From Diadema setosum (Eukaryota; Echinodermata; Echinoidea; Diadematoida; Diadematidae), in contig NC_092692.1 of NCBI RefSeq assembly GCF_964275005.1, forward strand, positions 12,448,764 through 12,512,763: a DNA stretch of 64,000 nt. Direction: 5' to 3'. The notes under the pieces were generated by a model. The model did not search any database. It saw only the letters and a list, made by a program, of their open reading frames with translations, and was not told where the DNA came from. Positions 9,001-57,109 of this stretch are shown here, piece after piece (within the stretch, counting starts at the first letter, position 1; each line of letters starts with the position of its first letter). The position numbers were made by a program, and so were the translations under genes.

Positions 9001-12000
9001 CCCACATGTACATTTTAAATGATGGTTTTAGATCTCACAAAATCAATGAATACGAAAAATAAAATCTACTGAATTTGAAAGACCCTAATGATTGGTGAAC
9101 ATCCATGGCATTAGTTGATGCCTAGATTAAAGGGTAAGATAAAGAGGCACATTTCTTTTATCCATGTCATGTCCACCTAACTGCGGAATTGCCCTTCCAA
9201 AATTACGTATCAAGAGATATACATAATAATATAAACAAAGTAAAGTAGAAATTACGCGGTGCGTAACATATGTCCCCGCCGGAAGTAGCATTTTGTAGCA
9301 AAATGTACAATATAGGTCAAAAATCAAGGTCAAAGGTCAAAGAAGTCAAAGGTCAAAATTCTGTGTAGAAGTTTTGAAGCCCTCACCTAGTGCCATCACA
9401 TAAAGCAAACGGAATCGAAATCGGGTTAGAAATGGCTAAGGAGTAGCATTTTGTAGCAAAATGTACAATATAGGCCAAAAATCAAGGTCAAAGGTCAAAG
9501 AAGTCAAAGGTCAAAATTCTGTGTAGAAGTTTTGAAGCCCTCACCTAGTGCCATCACATAAAGCTAACGGAATCAAAATCGGGTTAGAAATGGCGAAGGA
9601 GTAGCATTTTGTAGCAAAATGTACAATATAGGTCAAAAATCAAGGTCAAAGGTCAAAGAAGTCAAAGGTCAAAATTCTGTGTAGAAGTTCTGAAGCCCTC
9701 ACCTAGAGCCATCACATAAAGCAAACGGAATCGAAATCGGGTTAGAAATGGCGAAGGAGTAGCATTTTGTAGCCAATGTACAATACAGGTCAAAAATCAA
9801 GGTCAAAGGTCAAAGAAGTCAAAGGTCAAAATTCTGTGTAGAAGTTTTGAAGCCCTCACCTAGTGCCATCACATAAAGCAAACGGAATCGAAATCGGGTT
9901 AGAAATGGTGAAGGAGTAGCATTTTGTAGCAAAATGTACAATATAGGTCAAAAATCAAGGTCAAAGGTCAAAGAAGTCAAAGGTCAAAATTCTGTGTAGA
10001 AGTTTTGAAGCCCTCACCTAGTGCCATCACATGCAGCAAACGGAATCGAAATCGGGTTAGAAATGGTGAAGGAGTAGCATTTTGTAGCAAAATGTACAAT
10101 ATAGGTCAAAAATCAAGGTCAAAGGTCAAAGAAGTCAAAGGTCAAAATTCTGTGTAGATGTTTTGAAGCCCTCACCTAGTGCCATCACATAAAGCAAACG
10201 GAATCGAAATCGGGTTAGAAATGGCGAAGGAGTAGCATTTTGTAGCAAAATGCACAATATAGGTCAAAGGTCAAGGTCAAAGGTCACAACTGAAATTCTG
10301 TGTAGAAGTTTCAAAGTTCCCATGTAGTGCTATCATATAAAGCAAACAGAATCAAAATTGGCTCATAAATGACAGAGAAGTAGCAAATTGAAGATTTTGA
10401 TCACACACGGACGCACACACAGACAGACGGACGGACAGACGGACACACACACGTACGGAGCCCGTTTCATTGTCCCCTGCTCGAACTCGTTCGGCGGGGA
10501 CAATAAGTTACAACATCTTCCCCAAATATATTAACCTGATACATTTTATTGTGGTATGGGTGACATGGAATTCCTTGAGCTATTACAATAATAAAAATTA
10601 ATCACAAAGGGATATTTTCATTCTCCAATGCAAAAACTATCTAGGCAATTGGAAATGAAATTTGATACACAGTCACTAAATCATCAAATACTTTCCTTAA
10701 GAAAACTGTAACCATTGAGAGAGCTTTTACAGTTATAGAAAATTGATGCTAATTCTTGAAAGCCACCATACACAATCTCAACTTCAGAAAGAATTCTACC
10801 GAGAAAAAAAAATACAGAAAACCCAACAAGTTATGATATAAAGGTGAAAAGGTAAAACAATATGAGGAAATGAATCAACACTGACTTTATTCAACCAAAC
10901 AGTGAAAATGCATGACATACAATTTTACCTTTGCTGTTTTTCTGACAGCTACATAAGGAGCCATGCCATGCAAAGGATGTGGAGGACCACTGTATTCTGT
11001 GAGGGAGAAATTTAAATTCCAGATATCACTAGATATTTTTTTATTGCTTTTTTTTCTCCCAGTATTACATATTTTGAGGCTATCTGACATCACAGCCCAG
11101 TTTGTGCACGAACTGTGATGCATGAATAGCCACTGAGTTCAGAGTTTTGTCAGATTTACAATAAATTCTGACCCATATAAATTCACTGTGAGAGGACTCC
11201 TAATCTGTGCACGTTTGAATTTCAGTTTGGTAACACTTAAAGGTATACAATCTATGTGACAGTTACGCCAGATATCTCCACCCTTTATAACATCCTTGCA
11301 CACACAAACATGCTCAAGCCTATTTTCCTGCTAGCAATGAATTGCCAATATTGCCAACGTCAACATTAACTTACAAGGGCACAATCTGTGCTCAAGTAAT
11401 GAGAATAATGTATTGTTTCTCTGCATCAATGAAATAGTGTTTAAACAGCTAAATATCTGATCTTTTAACAAAACCATTATCAGTTTACTGTATGCATAGT
11501 CTGGTTATCTAATAAAAGACAACATCAATGAGACAACCTAATAAACACTGTCGTTCGTATCTACATAACTCTTCCAGAGGGGTAAAAACCCTAAACACAA
11601 CACATTTGGTTTACCTATGTACTTGAACCAAAAACAACACTACGTAAAGAGTCACTGTGGTTTAATTTGTCTATTCTTGAGAAGAAATCATCTCATCCAA
11701 GTCCTGGAGATAGTTCTAGGATGGTATGTGTTATGATGTACATGTGGAATCTGTCAATGAGTACCTGGCCAGGCTTATGACATACTACGTCGTTCTTACT
11801 TGTTGAGAGTTGAATGCCCTTTGCTTTGTTCCTTAACCTTCCAGAGAATGCCTCATGGCCGTGGTCCACTATGTGCAGCATCACTTTAAGAACCTTATGA
11901 TGTAATCACACAGGGGTAAAAAGAAACAATTAGTTGGCAAATGCAAGTACTTGTATGTGATTCTCTCTTATGTAATGTAATACTAATAACTTTGACAGCT

Positions 12001-15000
12001 AAACATCCCCTGCATTATATTGTGAATATATGTCATATTCATTATCACTATCTCCTGCTTGGACTTACTGTACTGCAGACCAAAGCAGTCCCATAATCCA
12101 ACATTTGTGATGGTCTGCAACAAAATTGATTTTTTTTTTTCTTTTTCTTCTTCAAGTAAGTCAACACCTACACTAAAGGCTGGAGAATTTATGCCCCACA
12201 AATTATCTATTATGCCCCTGAGAAATGTCAAACAATTGTGATATTGAAAGCAAGAGATTATTAAACAGAGAGGTGAAGATATATATACAATATATACCCT
12301 AAATCCTGATACTGAAAATATGCTAGACAGTCATGAAAACTGTGTTAGCTCTGCTCTTTCTTCTCACTTGTCAGATAGTAATAGAAAGTAGTCATCTTTT
12401 CTTTTTCTTTTTTTTATCAGCTTCCTGTGATCAAACAAGCAGCAACTAGACAACTCATTGCTATTACAATCTTCACATCATCTCTGCTTCCTTTCAAGAT
12501 TCATTTCTTTGAACAAAGTGAAAAGTAATTCTTTAAAGCACAGAATACTGGAAATGAGTTTAACCTATCTGTAGGGAGTAGGTATATTATCATTCATATC
12601 ATTTAGATTAAGTGGATTTTATAAAATAAATGGCATCATGACCTGTTGTTATTCTTCTAAGAAGAAAACAAAAAAGAGATAACGTCTTTTATCAAAAAAT
12701 TCAAAGACAGTTTGATTTCTAACATTCAAAACATGATTATAAGAGTTAAGACACAGTATACCACAGTCCAGCTTTTGAGTGAGTATACAAAGTGCCTGTG
12801 AATTCACATGATTGTTGGTTTATGAATGAACGTGGCATATGGCAGCTGAAGAAACTCTTGAGCAAAGATTACCTTAAACTTGACATGGCAGGAGTTCTTG
12901 TCCAGTCTGTCTGTCAGGAAATCCGCAAGACACTGACAGTTGCTCCCAGATTCATACGTCAGAGCTACAGAAATCCAGTTAAGGAGGTAAAATTAAAAAT
13001 TACCTACTGCTGCCTGTTCTCCCACTTGAACCAGGAGATTAAAACACATCTCCGCAGAGTTTTGAGGTGTGCCTGATTAAGTACATACATACAACTGGGT
13101 ACACCATACATACGTTGTGACATTTTCACAGCCCCTTTTCCAAAGGGTATAAAGTGCTTTATACATTAAATAACAATACATATCAGACACGATAAATTCA
13201 CATTGGATGTACACAAATATATATTGGATATCTGATACAAATAAACAAACAAAAGTATGAAATACTAAATATATCAATCAGAAGTGATTTTAGGTGCCTT
13301 TCAAGCGACAAATTTGAGAGTAAAGTTTGGGGGTGATGTATGGAAAGGAGCGATATTCACATTATGCAACTACTTCATGTGACATATAGGGATGAAAACT
13401 TTGAAAATGATCAAGTGTAGGAACAGGGAGTGCAATCACTAAGAGTTGCAAGAGAGCAGCCTGTATTGAATCATGTACATAGTCAAATTTATAACACATG
13501 CTATATGTCACTGTTCATGAAATTGGACAGCAGGTAACGATACTAGTGCAGGAGCAAAATTGTAAGCTTGATCAGAAGCACTTAAGTACACATTTCAATA
13601 TGAAATACACATTTAATCACAATGGTGAAAAAAAAAATCAAAATTTGATAAACTATAATAATTAGTACACCAAATACCGTCAAATGGGACTCCCTGAAGA
13701 CAATATTTAGTATTATGTTTGAAATGTGAAGCAAAGATATGGATGAATGAATGAATGACGAATGATTTTTTCCCTTTTTAAGTTTGTAGCTTGTGAAAAC
13801 TTATTTCTGGTGACAAAATGTTAGAGGACTATCCTCATGTGTCAAAAGTACATAAATATACTGTACTGCAGGCAAATTGTTAATTTTACCTGTTATGTCA
13901 TTGTAGAGATAGCCAGGGGTTGGGGTTTCATCATCTTGAGTAGCTTTCAGCAGCATTGGCCACTGGAATAGCAATGTCAAGATGAGGAATAAAAATACAA
14001 TTGCAGCATCATACATACACAAAAATTGATAAACAATGCATAGAGCTTTTAAATTTTTACAGAGAAATGTTGACTATATTCACCATTCACTATGTACACA
14101 TACAAGTGTTTACATACATACATTCTTAAATATGACATCTATATTATCAAATAAATATACAGCTATAACTCACTACATACAATGCGTTGTTTTATGAAAG
14201 CAATTAACGAGCAATGAAATAATCAGTCATCATCCTGCTCAGTGATCAAACTAATTTTTTGCTTTGAAATGATATCAGAATTTACAATTATCATGGTCTG
14301 GTAAGCACAATGGCAAAAGTCCACAGATCCAGGGAGAGAGGATATTGAGATTGGCCTTATATAAACCACACATCTTTATAAATATAATGGAACAAGTTTA
14401 AAGGACAAGTTCACCTTCATTAACATTTAAGGATTAAGAGAATGCGGCAATATTAGTAGAACACATCAGTGAAAGTTTGAGGAAAATTGGACAATCGATG
14501 CAAAAGTTATGAATTTTTAAAACTTTTGGGTTGGAACCGCTGGATGAGGAGACTACTAAGGCTCGTGATGTCATATGAGTACAACAGTATAAAGAAAATG
14601 TAAAGAAAATTCAACATATTTTCACTTTTTTTCGCATAATAAAAGAGCACTTGACTTGCCTCTCTCTAAAGGCAATGGGAATAACATTACCCATAACATA
14701 TGTCAGTAACGAGTCAAGGGAATGCGCACTTTTTTCAAAAGATGAAATTTTGTGAAATTCTCTTTGTATTTTCCTTATATTGTTGTACGCATGTGACATC
14801 ATACACTGCAGTAGTCTTCTCATCCAGCGGTGACTGCACAAAAACTTTAAAAATTCATAACTTTTGAACGGATTGTCCGATTTTCCTCAAACATTCACTG
14901 ATGTGTTCTACTAATATTGCTACATTCTTTCAATCCTTATGTTAATGAAGGTGAACTTGTCCTTTAAGCATCCCTCTTCTGACAAGTGAAACACAAGACT

Positions 15001-17701: not shown

Positions 17702-18059
17702 TTTGCTACAACAACGTCACTTGCCGTGTGTGATCTTTGATTGCGCTGCATAATCATGCATACAGCACTAGCTTGCCGTATTGTACGCGCACCAGCCCTG
17801 CACACACACCTAGCTCTCTCGGCTCAGCTCTCGTTTGATCGCACTTTCCTCCCGCGGGCTCGGCTGCTTGACGGTCTGATTGAATCGCATGCAATTGGCA
17901 TTGCAACCAACTTCTACAGCTGGCTAGCTAAAGTTAGCTGTACCCTTTGTACAAGTCCCTACTTTATATGGTTTAGTGGTACGGTGGGCCACTTTAACAT
18001 CGTGAGAGTCGTTGTACCAGCTGCCTGACTGCTGCCCACACCGATATCACATCACAGTG
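17702..18059. promoter_or_regulatory. Putative bidirectional TEPSIN/TMEM220 promoter and TMEM220 5' leader exon
   Basis: This interval lies between the TEPSIN start codon (17701, minus) and the TMEM220 gene (plus). It holds an ACGTCA half-CRE at about 17714 and a more GC-rich stretch near 17830-17890. A good plus-strand donor (GTATGT) falls after 18059. An acceptor after 18985 would join a non-coding leader exon to the exon carrying the TMEM220 ATG. The transcription starts are not visible; the shared promoter is inferred from the head-to-head layout. Confidence 0.45.
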
Positions 18060-19085
18060 GTATGTGTATCTACGTTGTATTAATTATTATTTTGTTTGAC
18101 ATGAATGTCAATACACGTTGTCGGTCATATTGACATACAGCACCAGTGCCACCACATAAACAAAGTGTTCACATGACATGTCATAGAGTAGCGGGTTCTT
18201 ACTTCTACCATCAATTAACATTCTACCCTATGCATATGCCTTGAGATTCAAAGACAGGATACCATTAATAATACCACTACCAGCTAGAAATTTATCAGTT
18301 CAGCATCAGAATTGTTGAAAAGTAGATCTAAGATCTAGTAACAACTTAGATTAGAAATCTAGTGTCTAATTAGCAGTTGTTAAGTCTGTACGGTAGTAGA
18401 ATTTAGAACCAATAAATTTGAAATGATGAATTCATGAATCATTGTTTTCACTTGTTTGTTAATGACAATGTTTTTACATAGATTTCTAATGTTATATTTG
18501 GATTAGACACACATGTACATGTATATTAACCTAATAAGTTTATATGAAAACTTGAAAGTACAACTACAAGAACTGTAAAAGAGGAAATGTTCGTGGTGTT
18601 GAAATTTTTGCGCTTTTCGCGCAACCACAAATGAGCATGAAAATAACAGCACGCGAATATTTTTGCTTGCCGTATGTTCCAGAAGTTTATATCTTGATTC
18701 CGCGGAATTAAAGACACAAAACTCTTGTGTCTTGTTACCCGGCTGAGTGCGAAAAATTAGTCGTGCAAAAAATATCCACTTTTTAATACAGCGTAGTCTT
18801 GCTTGTAGATATCAAGAAGTTGAAACTTCAAATCCCCACCGACTCATCGACCATTCCTTTTAAATACCTTGTGCTTTAGTAGAAAATATAGGTACTTATT
18901 GGTCTGTTTCACCTTATTTTAATTTCACAATGGCAGAAAATACAGCAGATTCATATCTTTTTATTGTTGCATTGATTATCTCCAGAATCGGGTGAAAAGT
19001 GTCAACAGATAGAAAGTACCTGTGACCTTTTGACAACAAGTGAAGTAGCCGCAGCAGTGGACTTGTACCTCAAGCAGATATTGCC

Positions 19086-31118: not shown

Positions 31119-31176
31119 AAGAAGAAGAAGAAGAAGAAAGAAAGAGAAAAAGAAAGGAGAAGAAAAAAAGAAGAAG
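31119..31176. repeat. GAA/AGA purine-rich simple repeat
   Basis: Degenerate (GAA)n run with AAAGAAAG variants. Confidence 0.7.
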
Positions 31177-33545: not shown

Positions 33546-33752
<207 letters not shown>

Positions 33753-34438: not shown

Positions 34439-35890
34439 CCAGAAGGCTCCAGACTAACTCGGTCTCAGGGAAAACTCGACCCCATTTCATATTTACACAC
34501 AGTTCGTGATCGCCATGTTCACCAAACGAGGCCTTGATGAGCAGACAGGAAAGTGCGTGCTAATCCTGTACAAAACAAATGGACAGCGCGCGGTCCTCAA
34601 GCCTATTACAGTATACGCACATCACCTCAGTTGCTGAGACGCGCGGTCTTTGAAGTTTTTGTTGTTGTTTATCAAGCGTCTTTGATAGTTTTTAGAGGTG
34701 CTTGAGAGGCGCACACTAATTTTGCATGCGCGCCAAAGAGGTTTTTGATGCGCACGTTGTAACAACTCGGACCATTACTGCGAGTAGCCAGAACGCTACA
34801 ATACCAATGTAGTTTATACAGGCCGCTCCCATATGCATAGTACAACGCTGTACAATCCAGAGGGACAACCAATTTACAACTCATCCCGCCGTCAAGCAAA
34901 GCGAGGCCGAGTTATCCCCGAGTCCGAGTCTAGCCTGACCCCTTTCGGGTAAGTTCTGGGACTGAACGTTTTTGGTTAATATTTCCCATTTTCGTCGTTA
35001 CCCATCGAATATCTTGTTATTACAGCGTTATTCCGCACATTTCCTAGGCATACGTTCACATTTTGGAGCAAAATTTGACAACTTTTGCAGGCGTACCAGA
35101 ACTTTCTTTGGGCTTTAAACTTCCTGTTCCCAGAGCTCCCTGAACAAGGTAGTAATTGTCATGGTTTATAGGTCCTCATTACGAGGTTCACCTGTGAACA
35201 TGTACAAGATTGTTAGCTTGAATGAGGTACAATCCTGTAATGAAGGTTAAGTCAAGCACAGAGAGGTTGTAGGTTAGGCAATACACACAGTAGAAAGATG
35301 TAACATACATAACTGCATTATACTGGGATGTACACTGGACATTACAGCTGTACTGCATATTACCTACAGGAATGTTGTGTTATGTCACATAAGACGTGAT
35401 GGCATGCAAAAAAAATACTTCAACTTGGGAAAATTTCATCACAAATGAAACCTTCAGAGAAGAATATGTGGAATAGTCTTGAATCACACACGTGAGTATG
35501 TCACTATATCATAGACTCCAACCCCAAGCACCTTCTGATCTGGAGATTCTCCCACCCGAAACCCTTAGCAAACGGGAGACTCCAAGTTGATGTGTGCAAA
35601 GCACGAAGTTCCTAGGGTTCTAGATGTTCTCTGGTGCTATCTAAGGCTTATTTTTTTCAACATACGATAACAATAAGTAAGAAATCCTTTCCACCGGGAG
35701 ACACAGAGCCAGGGCGGGAGAAATCAAATCTCAAACGGGAGAACGGGAGATTTTGCAAAAATGGGCTTTTGGCGGGAGATCTCCCGTCGAAAACGGAAGA
35801 GTTGGAGTCTCTGCTATATCCTACATAAAGTGTGCAATGTGTGTATGAGTTGTGTATTTGAATTGAATTGAATTGAACAGGTTATATTAA

Positions 35891-36660
35891 CCCTAACTAG
35901 GCCGGGGGGGGGGGGGGGGGGGGGGGGGCCTCCGAGGCCCCCCCCTCGACGATGTATCGCTAACGCGAAAAGCTATCGCCGCGACGTTTCATGACTTTTT
36001 TCTTTCGAGTCTACCGCATCTTTTGACACCAAATTTGTCGATGCCCGGGCGCGCTGTTCCGAAGTTGTGCATAAATATGTACTTGCATGTCAGGCCAAAA
36101 ATTGCTCAAAACCGTGAATTCGTGTACAATTTCAATGCGAACTGTGTTTACAGGCAAAATTCATAAAAGCATGATTATTTTGGGGTTTTACTGATTAAAA
36201 TCAATTAATAACATATTTTCTTGTTCAAAACAATGTCGCGGACAAATTTCATCGAAAAAACAATGAAAACATAAAGTTGAAAAAACAAAGAAATACATAA
36301 GAAATTCAAAAAACAATAAAATACTTAAGAAATTTTTTCTGATTGCACAATTTTTTTCTCTTATATTTGCTAAGAACACTAAAAAGAATATTTACACAAA
36401 AAATGTGCCTGTTTTGAGCTTTATTTAGTGATTTATACCAAATTGTCTGATTTCATGCATCATTATGCATAAATTAGCATAATTTAGCATAGATGATAAT
36501 TTTTATAAAAATTAATTTCATGGTACTTTAGATTACATTTTAGGCAATGTGTGTGCCAATTTTCGTCGTGATCGCGCGGTTGACGGGCGAGATCTGGAGG
36601 GGGGGCCTGGGAGGCCCCCCCGGCTCTATCATCTACCTAAATAGCCCGGCCTAGTTAGGG
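35891..36660. mobile_element. piggyBac-like TTAA element with long G/C runs
   Basis: TTAA at 35887-35890 and 36661-36664. Terminal repeats CCCTAACTAGGCCGGG are exact. Subterminal G24 and CCCCCC/GGGGGGG runs also pair. The CCC start fits piggyBac. The body has no recognisable transposase. Confidence 0.85.
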
Positions 36661-36719
36661 TTAAAAATCATGTATGGAAGCCAAAGGCTGATTGCACATG
36701 TTTACACTCATAAACATAA

Positions 36720-37930
36720 CTAGAAATGTCGCTATGGCGACTGATGCCTTTGCCATAATGCATGATTCTCCCGATAGGCGTATAGTACAATGTCTTCACA
36801 ATGTGTGATCCATGACAGTTTCACATAACTGGCAAAATATTGAAATGACAGGTTTATAAGTTTATGCATTGAGTAATTTCAAAGGTATGAAGAAAGAGTG
36901 TAATGACGGTACAAAATGGATCTTTTTTTTTTTTTTTTTTTTTGCCGGGGGGGAGGGGGGGGGGGCATTGAAACCTGGCCTTTGACCCTTAACCTTTGAC
37001 CTCCTGGCTGGAAATTTCCCAGAGAATCTCCATTAGGTAATGCATGTATTAAGTTTTGAAACTAATAATGCAAGCATTGCATATACTAGTATATGAGGGA
37101 AATAGTAAAATTTTGAGGAGATGACCTTGACCTTTGACCCCTGACTATTGACCCATGACCCCTAAATTCCCTAGATAATCCCTGCCAGTCAGTACATGCG
37201 TATGTACCAAGTTCCATGAAGATACATTGAACCATTTGCGAGAAAAGTGATATTGCAACATTTTCACCTAACCTTTGACCTTTTGACCTTTGACCTTATG
37301 ACATGAAACTCTCTCTGGAGAATCTCTACGCAGTAGTACATGTCCACACCAAGTTTCAAGAAAATACCTTTGGGCATTGCATAGATGTGGGGGAAATTGC
37401 AACATTTGTAGCATTTGACCTTGACAGTTTGACCTTTGACCTCTTGCCAATGTCACTAAAATCTACTCAACTAATTGTCCTATCATACATCATCCTTGGA
37501 CCAAGTTTGGTGAAAGCTGCTTCATCCAGTTTTGAGTTATCACATAAACAGATAAATTTTAGGATTTGACCTTGACCTTTGACCTCTGTCCGATATCACT
37601 GAAAAACTAATCAAGTAATTGTCCCATTATACATCATCTTCCAACAAAGTTTGGTGAAATTTGCTTGATCCAGTCTTGAGTTATCGCGTAAACGGATACA
37701 ACTTCATGATTTGACCTTGACCTTTGACCTTTTGCCGATTTCACCCAAAATCTAATCAAATAATTGCCCTATCATACTTCATACTTGGACCAAGTTTGGT
37801 AAAATTCCAGTAAATATTACTCAAGTTATCGCATAAATGAAAGTGGACAGACGTACGGACGTACGTACGGATGGACGGACAACCCGAAAACATAATGCCT
37901 CCGGCACCACTTCGTGGCGGAGGCATAAAA
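36720..37930. mobile_element. HINE/pearl-like element, CTAG/GGAGGCATAAA family, copy 1
   Basis: It starts CTAGAAAT followed by the hairpin GTCGCTATGGCGAC. It ends with a hairpin of ATGCCTCCG and CGGAGGCAT. The core consists of degenerate repeats with TTGACCTTTGACC. A GGAC-rich stretch precedes the right hairpin. Homologous copies are at 45715 and 49797. Confidence 0.82.
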
Positions 37931-38249
37931 GCAGATTATTTCAGTGCTCTGTACAAGCAATGGTATAAAGACACAATATCCAAAAAAAAAAAGACATTAT
38001 GGTGGTCACATGTGGCAAATCACAACAAATGGTCAATTAGTGAGGGTACCAGCCCAATCAATTCTAGACTTGCTTTAAAAAAAAAAAGAAAAAAAAAAGT
38101 ATACTGTCAACACGGCAACACACTGGTCAATCTACCTATTAGGAGAGGAGGTACATAGTTGTGACAATATGCTGTTTATGTGATCTGGCTAAATACCTGA
38201 ACTATAATGTTTATGCCGCAGAAGTTTGTTCACTCCTCTAATAATTTGA

Positions 38250-40183
38250 GGAATGGTTATGTGTCTCTGCAGATGTGGAATGGTTCAACAATGCATGCAA
38301 AGGGCAGATGTAAAGTCATGACGTGTAATCCAGCCACACAGAAGTACAATGTGGGGTTTGTGATAGTCGAGGAAGACTTTACACTCCTTTTGAGTAAAGC
38401 AATGGCAGAAAAAATGGGTATCATAACAGTGAACTGTGATTCCATTGAGCAAGTCCACTCAGTTAGACAGACTGATTTCACGGAGGAGCACTCTGATGTC
38501 TTCTCGTCATCATGAGTTGGGACATTGTCAGGTGATGAAGTCCACTTGTTGATTGAAGAAAATGCACAGCCAGTCATCTGTCCATCTAGAACTGTGCCCG
38601 AGTCACTGAAGGCAGCAGTGAAGGAGGAGCTCGACAATCTTCAACGCAGAGGCATGATTGGAGAAGTGCATATAAAACCAACGGACTGGGTCAGCCAGAT
38701 GTCAGTCGCTCAGAAGAAGTCTGGAAAAGTCAGAATTTGTCTGGATCCAAGGCCATTGAATGTGGTGTTGAAAAGAGAGCACTTCCCTCTACCGATACGC
38801 GATAACATACTACCAGAGTTGGTTACTGCTAGTCTGTTTTCAGTCTGTGCTCTCAAAGATGGTTATTTCAACTGTGCCTTAGATGAAAACTGAAGTCTGC
38901 TTACTGTACTACATTTGCCACACCATGGGGAAGGTATAGATGGAAGAGATTGCCTTTCGGACTCAAGGTGAGCAGTGAGATCCTCAAGAAGAAACTGCAT
39001 CGGGCACTAGAAGGCCTCAGTGGAGAACGTTGTTGTGTTGGTATTATGTTTGTTAAGTCTTTGCTGTGATGAGTCTTGAGCAAAGACTAACCTGCCAGCT
39101 GTAGCTGGATGTAATACGATTCCACTCCATGTGCGGAGAAAAACTCACTGGAAAACCTGCTGAATAAAGACACTCTCTCAGCCTTAGAATCGTCTCAACA
39201 ACGCATCTTCATTTCTAAGCATTCCCACTCCAAATCAACGGCATCTAAATGCATGTCAGTTGTGTTGCTGATGAAATCACATACTTGCCAACTCTACCGC
39301 TTTGGGCGGTAGACTACCGCTTTTTAGAGGTTTTGACCGGCTACCATCACCCCTAACGCGCAAGCGCGCTTGGGCTTGGTCGCTTCGCTCCCTTGCAAAA
39401 TCTACCTCTTCAGGATTTCAAAATGTTGGCAAGTATGAAATCAACATGTGGGGTAGTGATGAAGCAGAACACAATGCTCATCCATGTGAACTGTTGCAGA
39501 GTTGTCATGATGTCGGCATCGTGCTCAACAAGGAGAAGTGTCGATTTGGGTGAATTCTTGGACACATCATCTCAAGCTCTGGGTTGAAGCCAGATCTATC
39601 AAAGGTGGAGGCTATCTTGAAGATGACTGCCCAAACCAACAAAGATGACATCGATTGTCTACGAGGCATGGTAAACTACCTAGCCCGGTATCTCCCGAAT
39701 CTCTCTGACGTAATGCAACCTCTGAATGAGTTGTCACGCAAAAACGTTGCCTGGAACTGGGATGCTAACCATGACGAGGCATTCAGAAAGCTGAAACAGT
39801 TGCTGACAGAAGCACCAGTGCTGACGTACTACAACCAGGCAAAAGAATTGGTCATACACACGGATGCCAGTGCACTTGGCCTAGGTGCAGTGATGATGCA
39901 GGGAGGCAGACCGATAGCTTATGCCAGCAGAGCTCCGAAGGATGCTGAGTTTCGGTACTCGGTGATCGAGAAAGATGTTCGCAATAGTCTTCGCACTCGA
40001 GAAGTGGAACCAGTTCACATTTGGTCGGGAAGTCACAGTTTACTCAGACCACAAGCCTCTGGAGAGCATCATCAAAAAGCCATGGTGTCAGAGTGGTTCA
40101 ACTGTCCACATCACTCTGAAGAACAGAAGGGACTAGGACAAGGATTAATCCACGCAAGAAACAGGCCAGACCGTTTCATTTGA
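38250..40183 (+). pseudogene. Ty3/gypsy pol fossil (protease end, reverse transcriptase, RNase H)
   Basis: Reverse-transcriptase features (KVRICLDPRPLN, HFPLP) are followed downstream by an RNase H region (VIHTDASALGLGAV). Broken fossil interrupted by a small TIR insertion. Confidence 0.85.
39280..39437. mobile_element. 158-bp TIR element nested in the gypsy pol fossil
   Basis: Exact 13-bp TIRs (CATACTTGCCAAC and complement) and a 6-bp target duplication aaatca (39274-39279 and 39438-39443). The body has a CGCTT/AAGCG-rich hairpin. It must postdate the retroelement. Confidence 0.85.
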
Positions 40184-45400: not shown

Positions 45401-48400
45401 TGTTATGATTTGTGTGTGAATTTGCTTCTCTTATCCATCACATTTTTCAGGTGTTAAAACAGTTTGTGCCTAAAAACGCAAATATAGTATAACTACTATT
45501 AAATCCCTCAAGTTCCTTGAAATCGCTTTGAAGGCAGCAGATTAGGCCTATTATCACAGCCCATGTGGAATCATGAAGATCAAACTGCCATTTTGTTTAA
45601 ACAACACTTGATCCCCCCACAAAGAATTATAATAATGGCAACAAAGACACTATACACATTTCTACAATTTTTGCTTGTTAAAGTTATGAATATCATGCAA
45701 CAATGCAGGCAAAACTAGAAATGTCGCTTTGGCGACTGGTATGCCTCCGCCATAATGCATGATTTTCCCAATAGGTCTAGATAGTACATGTGGACAATGT
45801 GTGATTACATTTTCACAAAATTGGCAAAATATTGAAATGACAAGTTTGTCACAAAGGTGTTGAATGTTCACCTTCCTTGACCTAGGTTCAATTGGATGAA
45901 TAGGAGAGCATGTATCTAGGGATTTAAGGACTTAAACTCGACTTTGGCCCATTCATACATTTAGGCGTTGAGTAATTTTCAAGGTACAGGTGTGGAGAAA
46001 AAGTGCAATTTCTGAATTGAATAGTAAATTGTTACCATTTTCATCTCGCCCTTGACCCAAAAAATTCATAAGATAATCACTTTCAGGTAGAACATGCATA
46101 ATATGTACTAAGTTTCAAGATAACTTGAGCCACTTCCGAGATATGGAGGAAAAAGTTAGTTCAGCACTTTCACTTGATCTTTGACCTTTTGACCCTTGAG
46201 GCAAAAAAAGAAGAAAAAAAAAACTTTCCAGAGAATTTCGATTAGGTTACACATGTATGCATACACCAAGTGTAAAAAAAAAAAATAAATAACCCTGCTG
46301 GCATTGCATGATAGGAGGGAAATAGTAAAATTTTGAAGTGTTGCACTTGACCTTTGACCCCATGAACCCTACATTCTCTAGATAATCACTTCCAGTCAGT
46401 ATATGTATATACTATGTTTCATGAAGATACTTTGAACAATTTTCCAAGGTATGGAGAAAAAAAAAGAAGTTTTAATATTTTTACTTGACCTTTTGACCTT
46501 TGACCTTTGACCTCATGACCCAAACTTTCACCAGAGAATCTTAATTGGGTAATACATGTATACACTAAGTTTCAAGAAAATATCTTCAGGCATTCAATAG
46601 ATATGGTGGAAATAGTGAAATTTTATGTATTTGACCCTGACCTTTCGACCTTTGACCTTTGACCTCATGACCCAAACTTTCACCAGAGAATCTTAATTGG
46701 GTAATACATGTATACACTAAGTTTCAAGAAAATATCTTCAGGCATTCAATAGATATGGTGGAAATAGTGAAATTTTATGTATTTGACCTTGACCTTTTGA
46801 CCTTTGACCTTGAGCATGTGCGCCCAAAAGTTGATAGGCACAACTTCACCCCCTAATACACATACATGCCAAGTTTCATTAGGATACCTCAACAGGTTTT
46901 GATAGTTACCTTGTCCACAAAATTCATTACGGACGGACGGAAGGACGGACGGACGGACGGACGGACGGACGGACGGAAGGACGGACGGACGGACGGACGG
47001 ACGGAAGGACGGACGGACGGACAACCCGAAAACATAATGCCTCCGGCACCACTTCGTGGCGGAGGCATAAAAAAAATTATAGTTCCAGCTGAAATTCACA
47101 TTGATAAAATGATGGAAACATGAAAGAAAGCATTTTTTTTTCCCTCTCCCATAATCAAGTCTTACAAGTGATGGATTTTTCCCACAGCGGATGCCTACTG
47201 CAGATTCTGACACTACCAATAAAGTCTACAGTTGTTTAAATCTGCAAACTGTAGTATCCTGAAGTTGTCTTACCTCTTGTACAGGAGATACTCGAGTCCA
47301 TTATTCATTCCATCTTGAACAGATTGGGGTAGTAGCAGACACAACCTTGTCACTATCTGCATTCACAGAAAGAAAGGGTGAAGAGATAGTGAGAGATGGC
47401 ATTGAGAGATGTAAATATATGCAATACAAAACCCATATAATTTTGATTTAAAGAAAAAAATATAATAAAATGATACACCACTTGAAACCACATAATTGTT
47501 CTGAGAAAACAAAAACAAAACAAAAAACCAAAACCTTACAAAGCACAAGATATTAAAAACAAGCATGCAAAACATTCCAGTGAAGATACAGATGCCAACA
47601 GCGACAACTGCTCTGGTCGTATTTTCTCCAAAGACTTTGGGTTAGGGTTATGATTAGGGTTGTGATAGGAGTTTACGTTTACACATAGTTTGATGTAAGG
47701 ATTTAACATGGTTCCGGTTATGTTTCTGGGTAGGTTTAATAATCAGCTTAGTGTGTAGATAATAACAATAACTGACAGTGCATATATAGCGCATAACACA
47801 AAGCGATAATGTCCCTATGCGCTCAAAAAAAAAATGAAAAGATTATACAAAAACATACAATTCCACTTACAGTGATGGTATCGAGCTTCATGTTTGCTTA
47901 TACTGTAAACAAATGCATTTTCAAGGCAGACTTAAATCTACTTATATCAGTAATTTGTCTTAATTTCTGATTTTTAATTAATTTCTGAGGTAAATATTTC
48001 ATGGGAGCAAATGTCATGTATAACCAATGCCAACATCCACATATCAGAATCACAGAGATTCTTGAGAGCTACACAGGAGATAGGCCTACTTATGTGTCAG
48101 ATGCATCTCAATAGGTGAAAATATTTCAAAATCAGGGAGGCTTTCATATTCTTATGTCGAGAAAAGACAGTTTCTGCTTTGCTTTGTTTTGTTTTGTCTT
48201 GGTTTTCTTTTTCCAGAATCAGGGAGACTTGGCAGCTTGAAGCTAAAATTTGAAAGTAAAGCCATGATGCATGTTCTTTGACTTGTCCTAACTTTTCATG
48301 TATGAAATAGTCAAAAGAATATTTCTGGCATATACCTGAATGGAACCTCTTCTAATGCTTCCAATGACTCCATTACGATGAAAATCGGTATCGCCAAGCA

Positions 48401-48464: not shown

Positions 48465-50002
48465 TTTGAAGACAGTTGCTTTCTTTCAGTGTCATAACTT
48501 CTCTTCAGTCCAACATAGCTGCAGAGTGATGACACAGATGCCTGTAAGCTAGCAGATAATATCATTATGTTCAAATCGAGTAAGGTAATGCACACTTGTA
48601 AATGTTTTTTTTTTTTTTCTGTCATATGAGACATTGTACACAAGGGTAGAAAATGGTATTTTTTTAATTTCCCTGTAGCTGCTTGCTTTCATTTGCTTTG
48701 TAAGTTATAATGCTACTGTACGGTATAAATGCCATCGATTATCTTACCATATACTCACATATTTGAATCATTTATAAAGCACATATACACACACAAAGAA
48801 AGCCATATTAACCGCACATTCTTCATCTCCTTGTGTGGTCTGCCAGCTAGTCAACTCTAAAAACAGAATGATTACAAATCTCTACACTTTTCTGTGAAAT
48901 AATATCTTGCATATGATATAGTTGCATGTAAACCAGGGAGGTGGAATTCCACCTCCCTGATGTAAACTTAGCATTATGTGTATTATGCATCATTGTATAT
49001 TATATAGCAAGTTTAGGACCAATATGCCTCCGTGCCGAAATTCGACCATACGCTATTAAAGTCAAAAGAGGTTTCTGTGACTGAGTCTTTGTACTTGGTC
49101 AAATTTGGATGGCATTTATATGGTTGATTACAGTTTTTTCTAGACATCCATTTGAACTTTTCTAGGGTGGTCCACATGGCAAAACCAAAATGATTAATTT
49201 CTAAGAATAAACACCATTCACTTATTCTGGCAGGACTTCAGTAGTCATGGTAGTCTTGTGTCTTTCACAGTTCAGTTTCACTGAAGAAAGCTGTTTGAAA
49301 AGTTTATTAACTGATAAAAAGGGTTAAAGTTATTTAACTAGAGGCAGAGCTTCTATACTCTAGAATAGAACCTTAAAAAATATGGCCAAATTGTGATATC
49401 AGTCCCCTCTCATTCTGCGTGTGCATCTATACTATGTGCAAAGTCAGTGGAGGTTGAAAGACGTCCCCGTCTATGAGGAAATGAATGGCGGTGAATGGAG
49501 CGGGGACCTATTTTGCGATAAAGCCAAAAATATTAACTTGTGCCGTGGCAATTCAACATCCTTGCTAGGCCAACACTTGCACCTACACAAACAGTCACAA
49601 TCTGCGCTTATCTGCAGTTGATAAACTGGAATAATACATCCAGATATCCAGATTATGTTTGTCACAATATACTTCTTTTTCTACTTCTTCCTACGGTGCT
49701 TCTCATCATTATCAAACTACAAAGCCTGTTCAGCAACTGGATGAGGGTTTTTCTTTGTGGTGACAGTGGATACCATTTGTGCAATACTAAAATAAACTAG
49801 AAATGTCGCTATGGCGACTGGTATGGCTCCGCCATAATGCATGGTTCTCCAAATAGGTCTACATTTGTATAGCACAATGTCTTGACAATGTGTGATGACA
49901 GTTTCACATAACTGGCAAAATATTAAAATGACAGGTTTGTCACAAATGCATTAAATGTTCACTTTCCTTGAACTAGGTTTAATTGGATGATAAGAGTGTA
50001 GG

Positions 50003-50182
50003 CAGGGCTCCACACTAACTTTTATTTTTGGTGGCCCAAAGGTAAACATCCGACCTTTTTTGGTGGCCCGATCAGGCCACCAAATTCTTCATTTCTGAAA
50101 TTTTGGTGGCCCGACGTGCGTTTTTGGTGGTCCCGAGCCACCGTTTTTGGTGGTCCCGGGACACCGTTAGTGTCGAGACCTG
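50003..50182. mobile_element. CAGGGCTC-type MITE, copy 2 (nested)
   Basis: Opposite orientation to 2285-2449, with the same TIRs and GGTGGCCC boxes. It is flanked by an exact 7-bp duplication, gtgtagg (49996-50002 and 50183-50189). Confidence 0.82.
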
Positions 50183-50754
50183 GTGTAGGTATTTGGGGAT
50201 TTGAGGATTTGTACCGAACTTTTGACCCTTTTATAAGTTTAACTTATGAGCTTATAAACTTTGACCTTTTGGCAAGAAACTTCCAAGAGAATCTGAGATT
50301 GGGTAATACATGCATACACTAAGTTTCAAGAAAAAATGCTGCGGGCATTGCATAGATATAAAGAGAGAAATAACATTTTGATGAGTTGACCTTGACCTTG
50401 ACCATTGACCCCTGCCCTTTGACCCATGACCCCTAAATTCCATACATGATCACTGCCATGCAGTCAGTAGGACCTAGGTTTACCTACATGCATATTCCAT
50501 ATATAGGGCCTACCAAGTTCCATGAAGATACCTTAAAATATTTGTGAGATATGGAGAAAAAAGTGAAATTTTAAAATTTTCACTTGACCTTTGACCCTTG
50601 ACTTCATGACCCAAAACTCTCTGGGGAATCTTTATTTGGTAGTTCATGTATACACCAAGTTTCAAGAAACTCCAGACATTGCATAGATGCATTTGACCTT
50701 GACCTTTTGACCTTTGACCTTGAGCATGTGCGCCCAAAAGTTGATAGGCACAAC

Positions 50755-51870
50755 CAAAGAGGTTCTATATAGAGTAAGCGCTCACCATTCAGTGCGTACA
50801 AATGAAAACGGGGCCAATTGAACAGTGGCGCGCGCGCACGAAAGAGGTCGACAACCAGAAGCCTGAACCCGGAAGTGCCTATAGTAATACACGTAAAGTA
50901 CAGCTTCGAAGATGGGGTTGGGTTGGAAAAATCATTCTAATTTTAAGGAAAATCAATGTTTGTCCATATGCCTCCGGATTTTATAAGAGAGATACATTCT
51001 CAACACAGTATACGTGTTTTGATGAAAAAAGGACTTGTTCTGATGTGTCAAATATGTGCCTTAACATGAAGCCAAAATTGCCAAACAGGCATTTCATTCA
51101 TTCATACTACATAATAAAGATTGCAGAAAGGTAAAGTGTATACTCTTTGGTATGGGAGTACTGATTTCACATAATATATGTCACTTAGAAACATCAGACA
51201 CACATACAACACACACTCCCACACACACCCACACAAAACACACACACTCACAACACACACCGGTGCGCACACACACGTACACACCAAACCACATTTTTTT
51301 CAAATTCCCACACACACACACAACACACACATACACAAACACTTTTTTGTTTTTCAATTTCAACACACACACAAACACACACACACAATGCGTATGTGTG
51401 TGTTTGTTGTGGGTGTGCGTGGAAGTGTGTGTTGTATGTGTGTCTGATGTTTCTAAGTGACATATATTATGTGAAATCAGTACTCCCATACCAAAGAGTA
51501 TACACTTTACCTTTCTGCAATCTTTATACGTAGTATGAATGCATGAATGCCTGTTTGGCAATTTTGGCTTCATGTTAAGGCACATATTTGACACGTTTTT
51601 CATCAAAACACGTATAGACATGACATACTGTGTTGAGAATGTATCTCTCTTATAAAATCCGGAGGCATATGGACAAATATTGATTTTCCTTAAAATTAGA
51701 ATGATTTTGCCAACCCAACCCCACCTTCGAAGCTGTACTTTACGTGTATTACTATAGGCACTTCCGGGTTCAGTCTTCTGGGAGTCGACCTCTTTGCTAA
51801 TGGCGGCGGGTCGTTCAATTGGCCCCACTTCTATATGCGAGCGCGCGCTCTTTTCTATAGAACCTCTTTG
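50755..51870. mobile_element. 1.1-kb foldback element, nearly all hairpin (nested)
   Basis: Outer ends are CAAAGAGGTTCTATA and its complement, and an exact 8-bp duplication, ggcacaac, lies at 50747-50754 and 51871-51878. The two arms of more than 400 bp are inverted copies of each other (for example GATACATTCTCAACACAGTA near 50990 and its complement near 51630). They are separated by CA/GT microsatellite at about 51190-51450. No transposase was seen. The 8-bp duplication suggests a hAT-type machinery. Confidence 0.85.
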
Positions 51871-52740
51871 GGCACAACTTAGTTTCGCCCACTCATACAT
51901 AAACATGCCAAGTTTCATTATGATATTGATACCTCAAGTCTTCTATGCCCCAACGTTTTTTTTTTAGATACGCTGCGCGCCGACCACTGGCGCTGTCCAC
52001 GAAATTGAGGACGGACGGAAGGACGGACGGACAACCCGAAAACATAATGCCTCCGGCAACACTTCGTGGCAGAGGCATAAAAATCGTGATTAACATATGG
52101 ACAGTGATTGCATGCAGAGTAGGTCACGTAGTAGGTGTTCATGTTCTAAGCCTATATTATTATGGCTATGCAGCATGCATGGCATGGATAGATGGAAATT
52201 GCATTGGTATGTTCATCACTTACACAAATACTAATAGGTGGGACAAGTACTTAAGGGCCATATATCGTCTGTTCTCGCAAATAAGAGCAAACTCTCTCCC
52301 GTCGATCTTCTCATTCATGTGGCTAGATCCGAACTCCTTTCACGAAAAACCTCGTTTAAACACACGAATTTCACGTCACACGTAATCATGAATTTACTTA
52401 GAGCGACTGAATTGTCTCAAATTACTCTAAAGAAAAAATATGTTCGCTTGATCATTCCATTTAAAGTTTACCTTCCAACACGACAGTCATCACGGCCGGC
52501 TACGGCCACTTTTCATTCATCTGCGATCCGATTGAGACACGCATCGCGCAAATTTACCATGGCCATTGCCGGCCAGTGCAGTGGGAAAGCGCGGCTTCCG
52601 CATACAAAGCGATCCGTTCACGATACGACACGACAAAATAATAGTGAGATGCTGCACTCGTTTTGCATTGGCTTTATCATGTCACGTGACAAAGGCCGGT
52701 CCAAATTTTTTATTGCTAGAGACGCCATCTACTGAGTAAC

Positions 52741-53049: not shown

Positions 53050-54209
53050 GTGAGTTAACGTACTTTTGATTTTGGGAGATGAGTTAAACATATTTACTTT
53101 AGCCTACCAACAATATTTCAGCGACTTGGCTTCACTAACGTTAATTATTTTGCATGCGCATGTCCGATGAGGGCGATGTCGGGTAAAAATTAAATTTTGA
53201 TGATCAAGCTATTCGTTTTAATTGTCTAACTTGTTAAGTATTTAAATGAGGCATTCAACATGTAATTCAAATGTTAAATGTATAACGTTAGATTCTAAGA
53301 AATGTTTTTAATCCAAAAAAAAAAAAAAAATCTTAATTCATCACGGAGTGGACTTGTGTAACGTTAGTAGGCCCTGTGGCTGTGCCGCTGTGGGCTGTAA
53401 CAGTCAGTGCAGTGCCAGTGCCTCTCATCCATCTCACATCTGATATAAAATTAAAAGGCACAAATGGTCGCAAGTTCACACTGTGATTTTTTGTTAGATC
53501 CACTGCTTATATCAGATGTGAGATGGATGAGAAGTAACGTTAGGGATTCTAAGTACAAAAAGAGGAGGCCTCATCATGATCACTGCGGGGAAGGAGCCTC
53601 TTGTCTTGAGTACCCTAACACGTAGACACTAGAATGAACTAACGTTAAGGTTGGAGAAATTGGAAGATCTAAACCAAGCCGCTCATGAGCGATGAGGGGG
53701 AGAGTGCCTTGTTCGATGGGAGTCCCCCTCATGAGCGGATTTCCTGGACTGTCACTCACTGCGCTTGTTTTAGCTGCGTAGCTGACACATCGAACACTGC
53801 GATCCCGATATCGTGTGCCTTTGGCTTTGGCTTTAAACTTGCTCTCCACTGCAGGATTATCGCGCTTTGCATGTAAATGTGTAATGTTACATCACAGAAA
53901 TTTGTCGTGATCAGGCGCAAAATGTGAGAATGTTGGCAGTATTAAAGTCTGTGATAAGATAGCCTCCATTTTATTTTTAATCTGAACGTCTTGGCTAGCC
54001 ACAACACTACCACTGGCCACTGTTACAGTTACATGAATATTTTTATGCCTCTGTCATCCATCCTGACCCTATCACAAATTGCCCAAACCACCCACACGGG
54101 CGAGGCTTACGCTTTGTGTGTGATACACAGCGCTGTTGCTGTACACAAGTGCGTGCTTCACACGGCGTCTGGGCCCCATTTCATAAAGTGAAAGATGTTA
54201 CAATATTGT

Positions 54210-54320
54210 TAGGATAGCATAGCTGGAATGGCAACTTCCGATAGCAACAGCCAATCAGGAAGCTGGATTCTTGTCGTTACCATGACAATTGCAATCCCAG
54301 CAAGAGTTGCTATCAATTTT
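54210..54320. repeat. Dispersed short repeat, copy 2
   Basis: Same family as 3460-3600 (shared AGCCAATCAG, GATTCTTG and CAGCAAGAGTTGCTATCA). The preceding GGGCCCCATTTCATAAAG may be its left end. Confidence 0.55.
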
Positions 54321-54352
54321 CCATAATAATACCACTGAAGAAGACCTCTTAA

Positions 54353-54910
54353 AGGGAAAGTAAACCCAAACAGCAATGTGGATTGAGTGAAAGCAGTAAT
54401 ATTAATAGAGCACATCAGTGAAAATTTGAGGAAAATCGGGCAATCGATGCAAAAGTTATGAATTTTTAAAGTTTTGGTGTTGCAACTGCTGGGTAAGGAG
54501 ACTACTAGAGGTTATGACGTATGAGTGGACTACAATATAAAGAAAATAAAAAGGGAATTCAATGAAAATTCATTTTTCATGAAAATTACATATTCCATCA
54601 ACTTGATACTGACATATGTTAGGGGTAGCACTTATTTCCCCTGCTTTCTGAAAGCGGTTAGTCAAGAACTCTTTCATTTTGCTAGAAAAGTGAATTTTTG
54701 TGGAATTCCTTTTATATTTCCTTTATATTGTGGTCCTCTCATACGTCATAACCTCTAGTAGTCTCCTCATCCAGCGGTTCCAACACCAAAACTTTAAAAA
54801 TTCATAACTTTTGCATCGATTGCCCGATTTTCCTCAAACTTTCACTGATGTGTTCTACTAATGTTACTGCTTTCACTCAATCCACATTGCTCTTTGGGTT
54901 TGTCTTCCCT
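54353..54910. mobile_element. TTAA foldback MITE (diverged family A relative)
   Basis: It has TTAA on both sides (54349-54352, 54911-54914) and different tips (AGGGAAAGTAAACCC), but subterminal arms shared with family A (GAGGAAAATCGGGCAATCGA, ACTACTAGAGGTTATGACGT). Its arms pair over about 170 bp. The pattern suggests a sister family moved by the same machinery. Confidence 0.85.
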
Positions 54911-55132
54911 TTAAGAACACTTTTCCTCCTCAGGGACACAGGGTGCAGTTTAGTTTTTTCAAAGCATGTCAATACGTCATGCTCAAAGCAGATCGATTCA
55001 AAGATGTCTACTACTAGTAACATTTACAATGTGGTACAATTTCCATTTCATGCTAAGGCCTTGGGGGTGAATTACAGATGGAGCTTCTTGTGTCTGATCG
55101 TTCAATGTTCAGCAAAGAGATCAAGTCTTGAA

Positions 55133-55798
55133 ACAGGGAAATCCAGTCAAAATATAAGTTAGTCTGATAAAAAAGTAAAATCTTACGAGTTCAATGCTAA
55201 AAATTTGATTAAAATCAGGTGAAAAATAAGGAAGTTATGACATTTTGAAGTTTTGCTAATTTCTGCAAAACACTTCGACAGTGGATATGAATATATGCCA
55301 CTGAGTGAGCTAACCATGTCATACCCTCACAATTTTTCATATGATTGATCATGTACAAAAAATGATGAAAATTCAATGTTTCTGTCATTTAAGTCTGAAA
55401 ACATGATGCTATTCCTGGTTGAATAACTTCAGAATAGTGATCAGTTAGATACTATGTATACAAGGATTTGAGCCTCGGGCATACAAAATTTGTAATTTGT
55501 AATTTGTAATTTGTAATTTTGCGTTTGAATGAAAACATGGAAATTTCCAAATTTTATATTGTACAAGCTATAATAAGTTGTGAGGGAATGACATGCTCAC
55601 TTTGCCATTTGCATGTATTCATATTGACTGTTCAAGAACTGTTTACCCCCAAAATACAACTGTACACTGTAGCAAAACTTCAAAATGTCATAACTTCCTA
55701 ATTTTTCATCTGATTTCGATCAAAATTATACTGTTGAGCTCATAATATTTTACTCTTTCTTATCAGACTAACTTGTATTCGGACTTAACTTCCCCTGT
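55133..55798. repeat. 666-bp foldback element
   Basis: Ends ACAGGGAA...AAGTTAGTCTGAT and complement; inner arms (GAAGTTATGACATTTTGAAG and its complement) pair well. No clear target duplication. Confidence 0.75.
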
Positions 55799-55800
55799 AA

Positions 55801-55896
55801 CCCATTGAGGACGGACTGATTTTGCTACAACACGCATTTCCCATCTATAGACACTTGCCCGAGTATGTACATGTACTCGGACTCGTCCTCAACGGG
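55801..55896. mobile_element. 96-bp TTAA MITE
   Basis: TIRs CCCATTGAGGACG and complement of CCCGTTGAGGACG; flanked by GTAA and TTAA. The CCC tip is piggyBac-like. It sits 2 bp from the previous element. Confidence 0.75.
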
Positions 55897-56053
55897 TTAA
55901 GAAACACTCTTCACATTTTTGTTTGGGCTGAGTGAAAGGAGTGTGACCTGTAAAAGTACAAACCCAATGTATTTCTTTTTAATAATGTCCTGCTCAAGGG
56001 CGACACATTTGAAGATAAAATTCAGAGAGACAACAGTGAAAAACTAGAGTTAA

Positions 56054-56602
56054 AGGACAAGTTCACCTTCATAAACATAAGGATTGAGAGAATGCAGTGA
56101 ATATTAGTAGAAAACATAAGTGAAAGTTTAAGGGAATTTGGACAATCGATACAAAAGTTATGAATTTTAAAAAATTTTGTGTTGGAACCACTGGATGAGG
56201 AGACTACTAAGGCTCGTGATGTCACATGAGTACAACAGAATAAAGAAAATGTAAAGAAAATTCAACATATTTTCACTTTTTTCGCATAATAAAAGAGCGC
56301 TTGACTCTTTCTACAGGCAATGGGAATACTATTACCCATAACTGTCAGTAATGAGTCAAGGGAATGTGTACTTTTTTAAAAGATGAAATTTTGTGAAATT
56401 CTCTTTATATTTTCCTTATATTGTTGTACGCACATGACATCATACACTGCAATAGTCTTCTCATCCAGCGGTGACTGCACAAAAACTTCAAAAATTCGTA
56501 ACTTTTGAACGGATTGTCCGATTTTCCTCAAACTTTCAGTGATGTGTTCTACTAATATTGCTACATTCTCTCAATCCTTATAAATGAAGGTGAACTTGTC
56601 CT
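56054..56602. mobile_element. TTAA foldback MITE (family A), copy 3
   Basis: Flanked by TTAA at 56050-56053 and 56603-56606, with the same ends as copy 2. It lies in the presumed first intron of GRID2IP and directly abuts the element at 56607. Confidence 0.88.
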
Positions 56603-56606
56603 TTAA

Positions 56607-57109
56607 GCGCTCTGAGAGCGCAGACCTCTGCCAAGCAGCTAATTTCCACCAATTATCTTGTTCTTCCATTTAGATCAGTGATTTCCACCCATATGTTGCA
56701 TGCTGAAAATCGTCCACTTTCACAATATACTCTAAGCCTTTTGTTATGTCATCAAATTCTAGCTCCGCGGCGCCCCTCGCCCTAGCAGAAACTAGAGCGC
56801 GCACTGTAGTGCGCATATATGAAAACCTAAAAAATGCACAGCTTGAACTCTAAGTTTATTGACCCTATATGTACTGTACCTGCCAAAATATCAAAAATCC
56901 TTCATAAAATCCATAAAAATGTCCAGATCACTACCAAAATTTAATGGTGCATATCTGTTACTTGTATCATTTTCAACCTTTCCTGTAACTTTCATCCAAA
57001 TCTGTTCACAACGTATTTTTGAGAATGTTTTTGCACACAGACAAACAAACCAGCAAACAAACCAACGGTAATGAAAACATAACCTCCTCCCTTGGCGGAG
57101 GTAAAAATT
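56607..57109. mobile_element. HINE/pearl-like element, third family (short)
   Basis: A left hairpin (GCGCTCTGAGAGCGC) is followed by ACCTCTGCCAAG. The right end CTTGGCGGAGGT forms a hairpin with ACCTCC, after a CAAACAAACCAGC-type tract. The architecture is the same as 36720 and 9245 but there is no long TGACCT core. It abuts a TTAA element. Confidence 0.6.

Follow-up and report, generated by a model that had tools for sequence, protein, structure and literature searches.

What kind of mobile element do three repeat families in a sea urchin genome represent, and which enzyme could move them? The question is raised by a stretch of Diadema setosum DNA of 64,000 nucleotides (contig NC_092692.1, positions 12,448,764 to 12,512,763; hereafter the window), in which a preliminary description had noticed three families, here called F1, F2 and F3, that differ in sequence and share a layout; it had suggested that they are Helentron-associated (HINE-like) lineages moved by one rolling-circle machinery. 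We conclude, with a probability of roughly 0.88, that F1, F2 and F3, all on the minus strand of the window, belong to the non-autonomous Helitron2/Helentron elements (HINEs); the likeliest source of an enzyme that we found in the genome (912.7 Mb analysed) is a Helentron-type lineage with frames of about 3,400 amino acids that is tied to a fourth family, F4. The members of F1-F3 in the window and their parts (subTIR, subterminal inverted repeat) are as follows.

9236-10503, minus strand: F1, a non-autonomous element of HINE layout, with its 5′ end at 10503 and its 3′ end at 9236
9252-9281, minus strand: 3′ subTIR (9271-9281) and 3′ palindrome (9252-9266) of F1
9284-10286, no strand assigned: core of F1, 6.4 copies of 158-bp units, with AGGTCA on the plus strand, antisense to the tips
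10409-10444, minus strand: GTCC/GTCT-like tract of F1
10470-10503, minus strand: 5′ hairpin of F1, with the 5′ subTIR at 10492-10502
36720-37926, minus strand: F2 copy a, with 5′ hairpin (37895-37926), tract (37845-37880), core (about 36997-37730), and palindrome and CTAG (36720-36741); 3′ subTIR mutated
45715-47068, minus strand: F2 copy b, diverged, with 5′ hairpin (47037-47068), tract (46929-47022), 3′ subTIR (45741-45752), and palindrome and CTAG (45715-45736)
49797-52078, minus strand: F2 copy c, interrupted, with 5′ hairpin (52047-52078), and palindrome and CTAG (49797-49818)
56044-57102, minus strand: F3, with 5′ hairpin/subTIR (57082-57102), 3′ subTIR (56624-56635), palindrome (56607-56621) and CTAG (56044-56047)

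Read on the minus strand, the three families have a common order, that is, T's, a 5′ hairpin that holds the subTIR, a simple-repeat tract (GTCC/GTCT in F1 and F2, TTTG/TCTG in F3), a body, the inverted subTIR, a palindrome and a short tail whose terminal letters (CTAG in F2 and F3, CTTG in F1) are followed by T's. The hairpins at both ends, the short inverted repeat and the tract that had first been noticed are therefore present in F1, F2 and F3 alike; the AGGTCA core that was thought to go with them is not, since F3 contains no AGGTCA, so the core is common to two families only. The subTIR pairs are exact over 11 bp in F1 and 13 bp in F2 copy b and have one mismatch in F3. These features agree with those of HINEs, in which a subTIR pair of about 11-15 bp has its 5′ member near the 5′ end and the palindrome lies 8-35 bp from the 3′ end (here 8 nt in F2, 16 in F1 and 8-10 in F3); they also agree with those of Helitron2, in which one asymmetric terminal inverted repeat (ATIR) is inside the 5′ hairpin and the other is upstream of the 3′ hairpin.

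A strict scan for a subTIR pair, a 5′ hairpin and a 3′ palindrome gave 4 hits in the window versus a mean of 0.03 in 30 simulated windows; it recovered only F1 among the three families and was then loosened. The loosened scan gave 7 hits, including F1, F2 copy b and F3, versus 1.05 on average and at most 3 in 40 Markov-1 simulated windows; when a TTTCTA tail was required, 2 hits were left in the window versus 0 in all 40 simulated windows. The folding z-scores of the tips (DNA parameters) are −5.2 (5′) and −1.5 (3′) for F1, −3.5 and −3.8 for F2, and −2.7 and −1.7 for F3.

The ends were then fixed on genomic copies. For F2 we used 20 of the best-scoring genomic copies and the 3 window copies; identity to the majority sequence is 96.6-98.8% in 21 of 22 and 68.7% in copy b. 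As had been read from the window, F2 ends as a hairpin plus ATTTCTAG before T in 23/23 copies; CTAG is followed by T in all 23 and by TT in 22. The 5′ tip was found in 22 copies, and the preceding flank ends in T in 22, in TT in 21 and in TTTT in 19; over 20 bases on each side, the target flanks are 52-53% T. The end of the 5′ flank matches the start of the 3′ flank over a mean of 2.86 bp, versus 2.89 bp with flanks permuted; with T runs removed, the match is 0-1 bp in 21/22 and a chance-like 4 bp in one. F2 therefore has a T-rich (TT) border on both sides, without duplication beyond T. In F1, the 5′ tip TTGTCCCC is present in 7/7 copies (six genomic and the window copy), preceded by T in five and A in two; the 3′ tip, whose tail continues beyond TTTCTAC into CTTG (in the window copy, CTTTG) followed by TTT, is present in 6 of these 7 and was not found in the remaining one (L072). 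In F3, CTAG is followed by TT in 4/4 genomic copies, and T is ahead of the 5′ tip in 3/4. The F1 and F3 flanks were judged by eye in a few copies, so that the duplication statistics are those of F2 only. Neither of the two observations that the preliminary description had named as fatal to its proposal was made: the ends fixed on genomic F1, F2 and F3 copies coincide with the hairpins, and the F2 flanks, on which duplication was tested, have no target-site duplication beyond T.

F1 and F2 look recent: in addition to the F2 identities, 39 other F1 matches among those listed have identities of 94-98% along about 219-233 bases of the query. F3 is older, because its 39 other long matches among those listed are only 79-83% identical. 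An exact match to the F2 5′ tip is found at 2,847 places in the genome (1,408 + 1,439; reversed-pattern control, 0); the first-look numbers for F1 (1,784) and F3 (4,120) are candidates, not copy counts. No empty site with joined F2 flanks was found among the sequence searched; the apparent spans were the L014 locus itself and a tandem tip there. Tip-to-tip tandems were observed once for F2 (at L014) and once for F3 (at L081).

Two other classes of element have some of these features. Canonical Helitron1 derivatives begin with 5′ TC, end with 3′ CTRR and insert between A and T; F2, F3 and F4 do end in CTAG right after the palindrome and before T, and the preliminary description had compared F2 with such a CTRR end. 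However, the rest of the canonical set is absent: the 5′ ends are not TC, the targets of F2 are T-rich on both sides rather than A/T, F1 ends in CTTG, and there is a second (5′) hairpin whose subTIR is repeated ahead of the 3′ palindrome. With the CTAG end of F2 and F3 as the only feature of Helitron1 that we found, we consider this origin very improbable and rejected it. Cut-and-paste miniature inverted-repeat transposable elements (MITEs) have short terminal inverted repeats, and inverted repeats of 11-13 bp are indeed found near both ends here; however, these are subterminal and asymmetric, 22 F2 copies have no duplication beyond T, and other repeats in the window that do have TTAA or 8-bp duplications look different. 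The MITE reading, which we regard as still less probable than Helitron1, was rejected on the F2 flank test. The HINE identity, in contrast, is supported by the anatomy, by ends at the hairpins and by the F2 flanks.

Known systems of this kind, compared here on excerpts of the published descriptions, place the three families more closely. HINE/DINE-1-like elements (PMC4067079) share subTIRs, a 5′ inverted repeat/hairpin, a microsatellite, central tandem repeats, a 3′ palindrome near the end and a T-rich target without duplication; they differ in sequence, in the distance from the 3′ subTIR to the end (see below), in the AGGTCA-rich units of F1 and F2, and in that a partner with the same tips was not found for F1-F3. 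In Helitron2 (PMC3627910), the 5′-ATIR is likewise in the 5′ hairpin and the 3′-ATIR just ahead of the 3′ hairpin, at a distance to the 3′ end (about 20-30 bp) that fits F1-F3 better than that of mite HINEs; the difference is the C-terminal endonuclease of the protein that we read (vide infra), which is as in Helentrons. The Pacific oyster Cg_HINE (PMC7492417) has a subTIR of 11-12 bp, a complementary inverted repeat, a GTCY/GTCC microsatellite, a tandem core, a second subTIR and palindrome, and a TT target without duplication; its tandem repeat sequences differ from ours.

A search for an enzyme used the Rep family PF14214, which has 49 matches in the genome, in some cases as two pieces of a single locus; 23 of the matches are in open frames of at least 2,800 amino acids, and 14 control genomes have none. 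The one frame that we read (on contig C1, L059-L060) contains Herpes_teg_N, OTU, DUF6570, Helitron_like_N, PIF1 and a C-terminal Exo_endo_phos; with its endonuclease fused C-terminal to the Rep/helicase, this protein is, as judged from its domains, a Helentron-type Rep-helicase-endonuclease. Tegument-like and OTU proteases in Helentrons have already been published (PMC9741609, in excerpt). Of 30 Rep loci compared, 27 belong to one lineage and 3 to another that is 70% alike, and the long frames, about 3,400 amino acids, are mostly in the 27-member lineage; HxH is present in 30/30, and a stop interrupts the Rep stretch in 2.

The tips that accompany these genes are those of F4, found to the left of one Rep unit on C24 and to the right of one on C13. 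Its layout is that of F1-F3, with the 5′ hairpin AGGTGATCCGAGTATCCTCTCGGATCACCT, a 3′ subTIR, a palindrome and TCTAG; a full copy is 2.37 kb, has AGGTCA on the sense strand, and has tips with folding z-scores of −6.1 (5′) and −4.6 (3′). F4 matches of at least 150 bp are upstream of the Rep body in 4 of 7 upstream flanks (C24, C5, C2 at 32.96 Mb, and C22); none of that length was listed at C2 5.70 Mb, C24 25.18 Mb or C1, where shorter matches were filtered out. A nested F4 copy on C13 is flanked by CTGATT and TTCTTTG and itself reads CTGATTCTTTG there, which fits a TT target; the C24 copy has CTGAATCTTTC at the corresponding site. Across the genome, the 5′ tip pattern of F4 was counted 3,596 times (control, 0). 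Among the first 100 listed, all on C1, 41 are within 75 kb of three Rep loci (1.8 expected; 1 of 20,000 random placements) and 10 are within 20 kb of the same loci (0.5 expected; 177 of 20,000 placements). F4 itself is absent from the window, which has no 150-bp match to it and only two one-edit matches to its 11-base subTIR. The search for an autonomous Rep element with the same tips thus led to a Rep-helicase-endonuclease and a partner of the same layout, but the tips are those of F4, and none with F1-F3 tips was found in the Rep loci searched; a single rolling-circle machinery for F1-F3 is a possible reading.

In the mechanism that we favor, a Rep-helicase-endonuclease made elsewhere would nick the T-rich border of an F1, F2 or F3 element; one strand would presumably be peeled from the 5′ hairpin/subTIR end, the reaction would stop at the 3′ subTIR, palindrome and CTAG/CTTG, and the product would be inserted into another T-rich site without target duplication. 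That the F4-linked lineage provides this enzyme is plausible, at about even odds, since no second lineage turned up that is well populated and has long frames. Several observations weigh against these readings. The 3′ palindromes of F1 and F3 are weak when taken alone, because their folding z-scores are only −1.5 and −1.7; the subTIR is about 24-35 nt from the 3′ end, nearer than the 38-60 bp of mite HINEs (PMC4067079, excerpt); the terminal CTTG of F1 is unlike the CTAG of F2-F4; and old copies are under-represented, because the copies studied were the best-scoring ones. With F1-F3 as queries, no match to the Rep loci L029-L067 was found at an E-value of 1e-3, and their tip patterns have one loose match, with 4 edits, in Rep pieces a and b and their extensions (in a). 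The F2 tips are not clustered at three Rep loci: of 100 listed tips, 2 are within 75 kb of these loci, where 2.3 would be expected, and 6 are within 100 kb, where the expectation is 3.0. The last two results, together with tips that differ between the families, also favor an alternative in which F1, F2 and F3 were each moved by a lost or undetected autonomous partner of their own; however, F1 and F2 look recent, and therefore their enzyme acted recently, and the Rep loci fall 27 to 3 into two lineages with the long frames mostly in the larger. We give separate partners a little less than an even chance. As to the edges of the Rep units themselves, a search for a palindrome with CTAG in Rep pieces a, b and c turned up a single doubtful site, which is in a; what had looked like the 5′ edge of unit a was rejected as another repeat, most of its listed matches covering only about positions 2-601.

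F1-F3 are ordinary in kind, although F1 and F2 are young and abundant; the arrays formed by F4 matter more. An exact head-to-tail joint, TCTAG-TT-AGGTGATCCGAG, occurs 869 times in the genome (control, 0). Positions were taken for the first 100 listed (C1, C2, and C3 up to 0.54 Mb), which are the head of the table and not a random sample; the following counts refer to these. A joint is no more than 50 kb away from 9 of 10 Rep loci; on C1 and C2 alone it is 5 of 6, equalled in 0 of 5,000 random placements. Same-strand joints less than 70 kb apart define 77 gaps, 70 of them 1.8-11.2 kb long and the other seven 36-59 kb; a Rep match is inside six of the seven large intervals, and the seventh (C1, 39.42-39.46 Mb) is without PF14214. 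Joints less than 60 kb apart bracket 6 of the 10 Rep loci, for example in an interval of 38 kb on C1 (14.81-14.85 Mb) and in one of 36 kb on C3 (0.47-0.51 Mb). Of the 9 Rep loci with a nearby joint, 3 have it on one side only; in 7 of the 9 Rep is on the strand opposite to that of the nearby joints, and in 2 on the same strand. Because six of the seven large intervals hold a Rep match, we somewhat favor the view that the autonomous Helentrons are giant, F4-tipped units of about 36-46 kb (59 kb in one case), located inside head-to-tail arrays of their own derivative of about 1.8-2.4 kb and joined exactly as CTAG-TT-AGGTGATCC, a view that relies on the joint positions around Rep loci. If so, the arrangement would be a trace of rolling-circle read-through beyond the 3′ hairpin, by which concatemers are inserted whole, the enzyme gene is carried along and satellite-like DNA is seeded.

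Arrays of this type are not new as such, because both head-to-tail junctions and Helitrons in tandem arrays have been described from plants and bats (PMC5876387, excerpt); the joint of a 3′ end to a 5′ end is the same, and what differs is that the arrays here have Rep-coding loci among them, between junctions 36-59 kb apart. Among the titles listed in the literature searches, none concerned Rep-coding units inside HINE arrays, which is not proof of absence. Head-to-tail joints are expected of rolling-circle transposition; with hundreds of exact ones in a single genome, many of them close to long enzyme frames, both the transposition mechanism and the link from transposon to satellite become testable. 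On C3 (264947-539642), all of the listed joints are on one strand, and four PF14214 loci are in four large gaps. Dense F4 arrays without a PF14214 match are at C1 25.32-25.38 Mb and C1 39.40-39.46 Mb, and the second has a joint gap of 42 kb, in the Rep-bearing size class.

The AGGTCA core is a separate puzzle, that is, AGGTCA-A-AGGTCA recurs in both orientations at a spacing of about 135-173 bp in cores that otherwise cannot be aligned. All 17 exact AGGTCA-N-AGGTCA sites in the window are within F1 (8) or the F2 copies (9). In F1 the motif runs antisense to the tips (in the 6 copies that have both tips, the sense strand contains 0 AGGTCA and 13-27 TGACCT), and in F2 it runs in the sense direction; successive motifs are 135-173 bp apart in F1 and F2, compared with 149 bp within F4 pairs. 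Because the orientation differs and the F1 and F2 cores align only over 21-34 bp around the motif, the evidence points to a separate gain or inversion of the motif rather than to simple inheritance with the tips. Conservation in core versus spacer is 0.85/0.54, 0.98/0.91 and 0.90/0.71 (0.66/0.64 in F2 copy b), a contrast that is partly circular because the units were chosen by the motif. We take AGGTCA-A-AGGTCA to match a nuclear-receptor DR1 site, and any such role is speculative. A literature search on AGGTCA in Helitrons and transposable elements listed one plant paper, and none of the papers listed by a looser search contains AGGTCAAAGGTCA, neither of which proves absence; in the main text of the oyster paper (PMC7492417), AGGTCA has 0 occurrences.

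Two of the elements are longer than the preliminary description had them, because other transposons are nested in them.

50755-51870, no strand assigned: inverted-end transposon lying inside F2 copy c, between 8-bp repeats GGCACAAC at 50747-50754 and 51871-51878
56054-56602, no strand assigned: palindromic repeat nested in the 3′ end of F3, with TTAA on both sides (56050-56053 and 56603-56606)

The third F2 copy, which starts at 49797, accordingly extends to 52078, and F3 ends not at 56607 but at the CTAG beyond its insert, at 56044-56047. An exact 19-base F3-type pattern had 0 matches in viral contigs, which is uninformative. The strict layout scan has a further hit at 17913-19068, and the other four hits of the loosened scan, without the TTTCTA tail, are at 60087-60806, 60142-60568, 35758-39299 and 2629-3055. 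Ends like the CAAAGAGGTTCTA ends of the insert in F2 copy c also occur in L065, and inverted TTTGGTGGCCCGA/TCAGGCCACCAAA units at 50059-50170 within the same copy are apparently another small insertion. The palindromic repeat in F3 belongs to a family with ends like TTAAAGGACAAGTTCACC that is present in the window at 4469-5033, about 14400-14980 and 56050-56606, the last between the TTAA copies inside F3.

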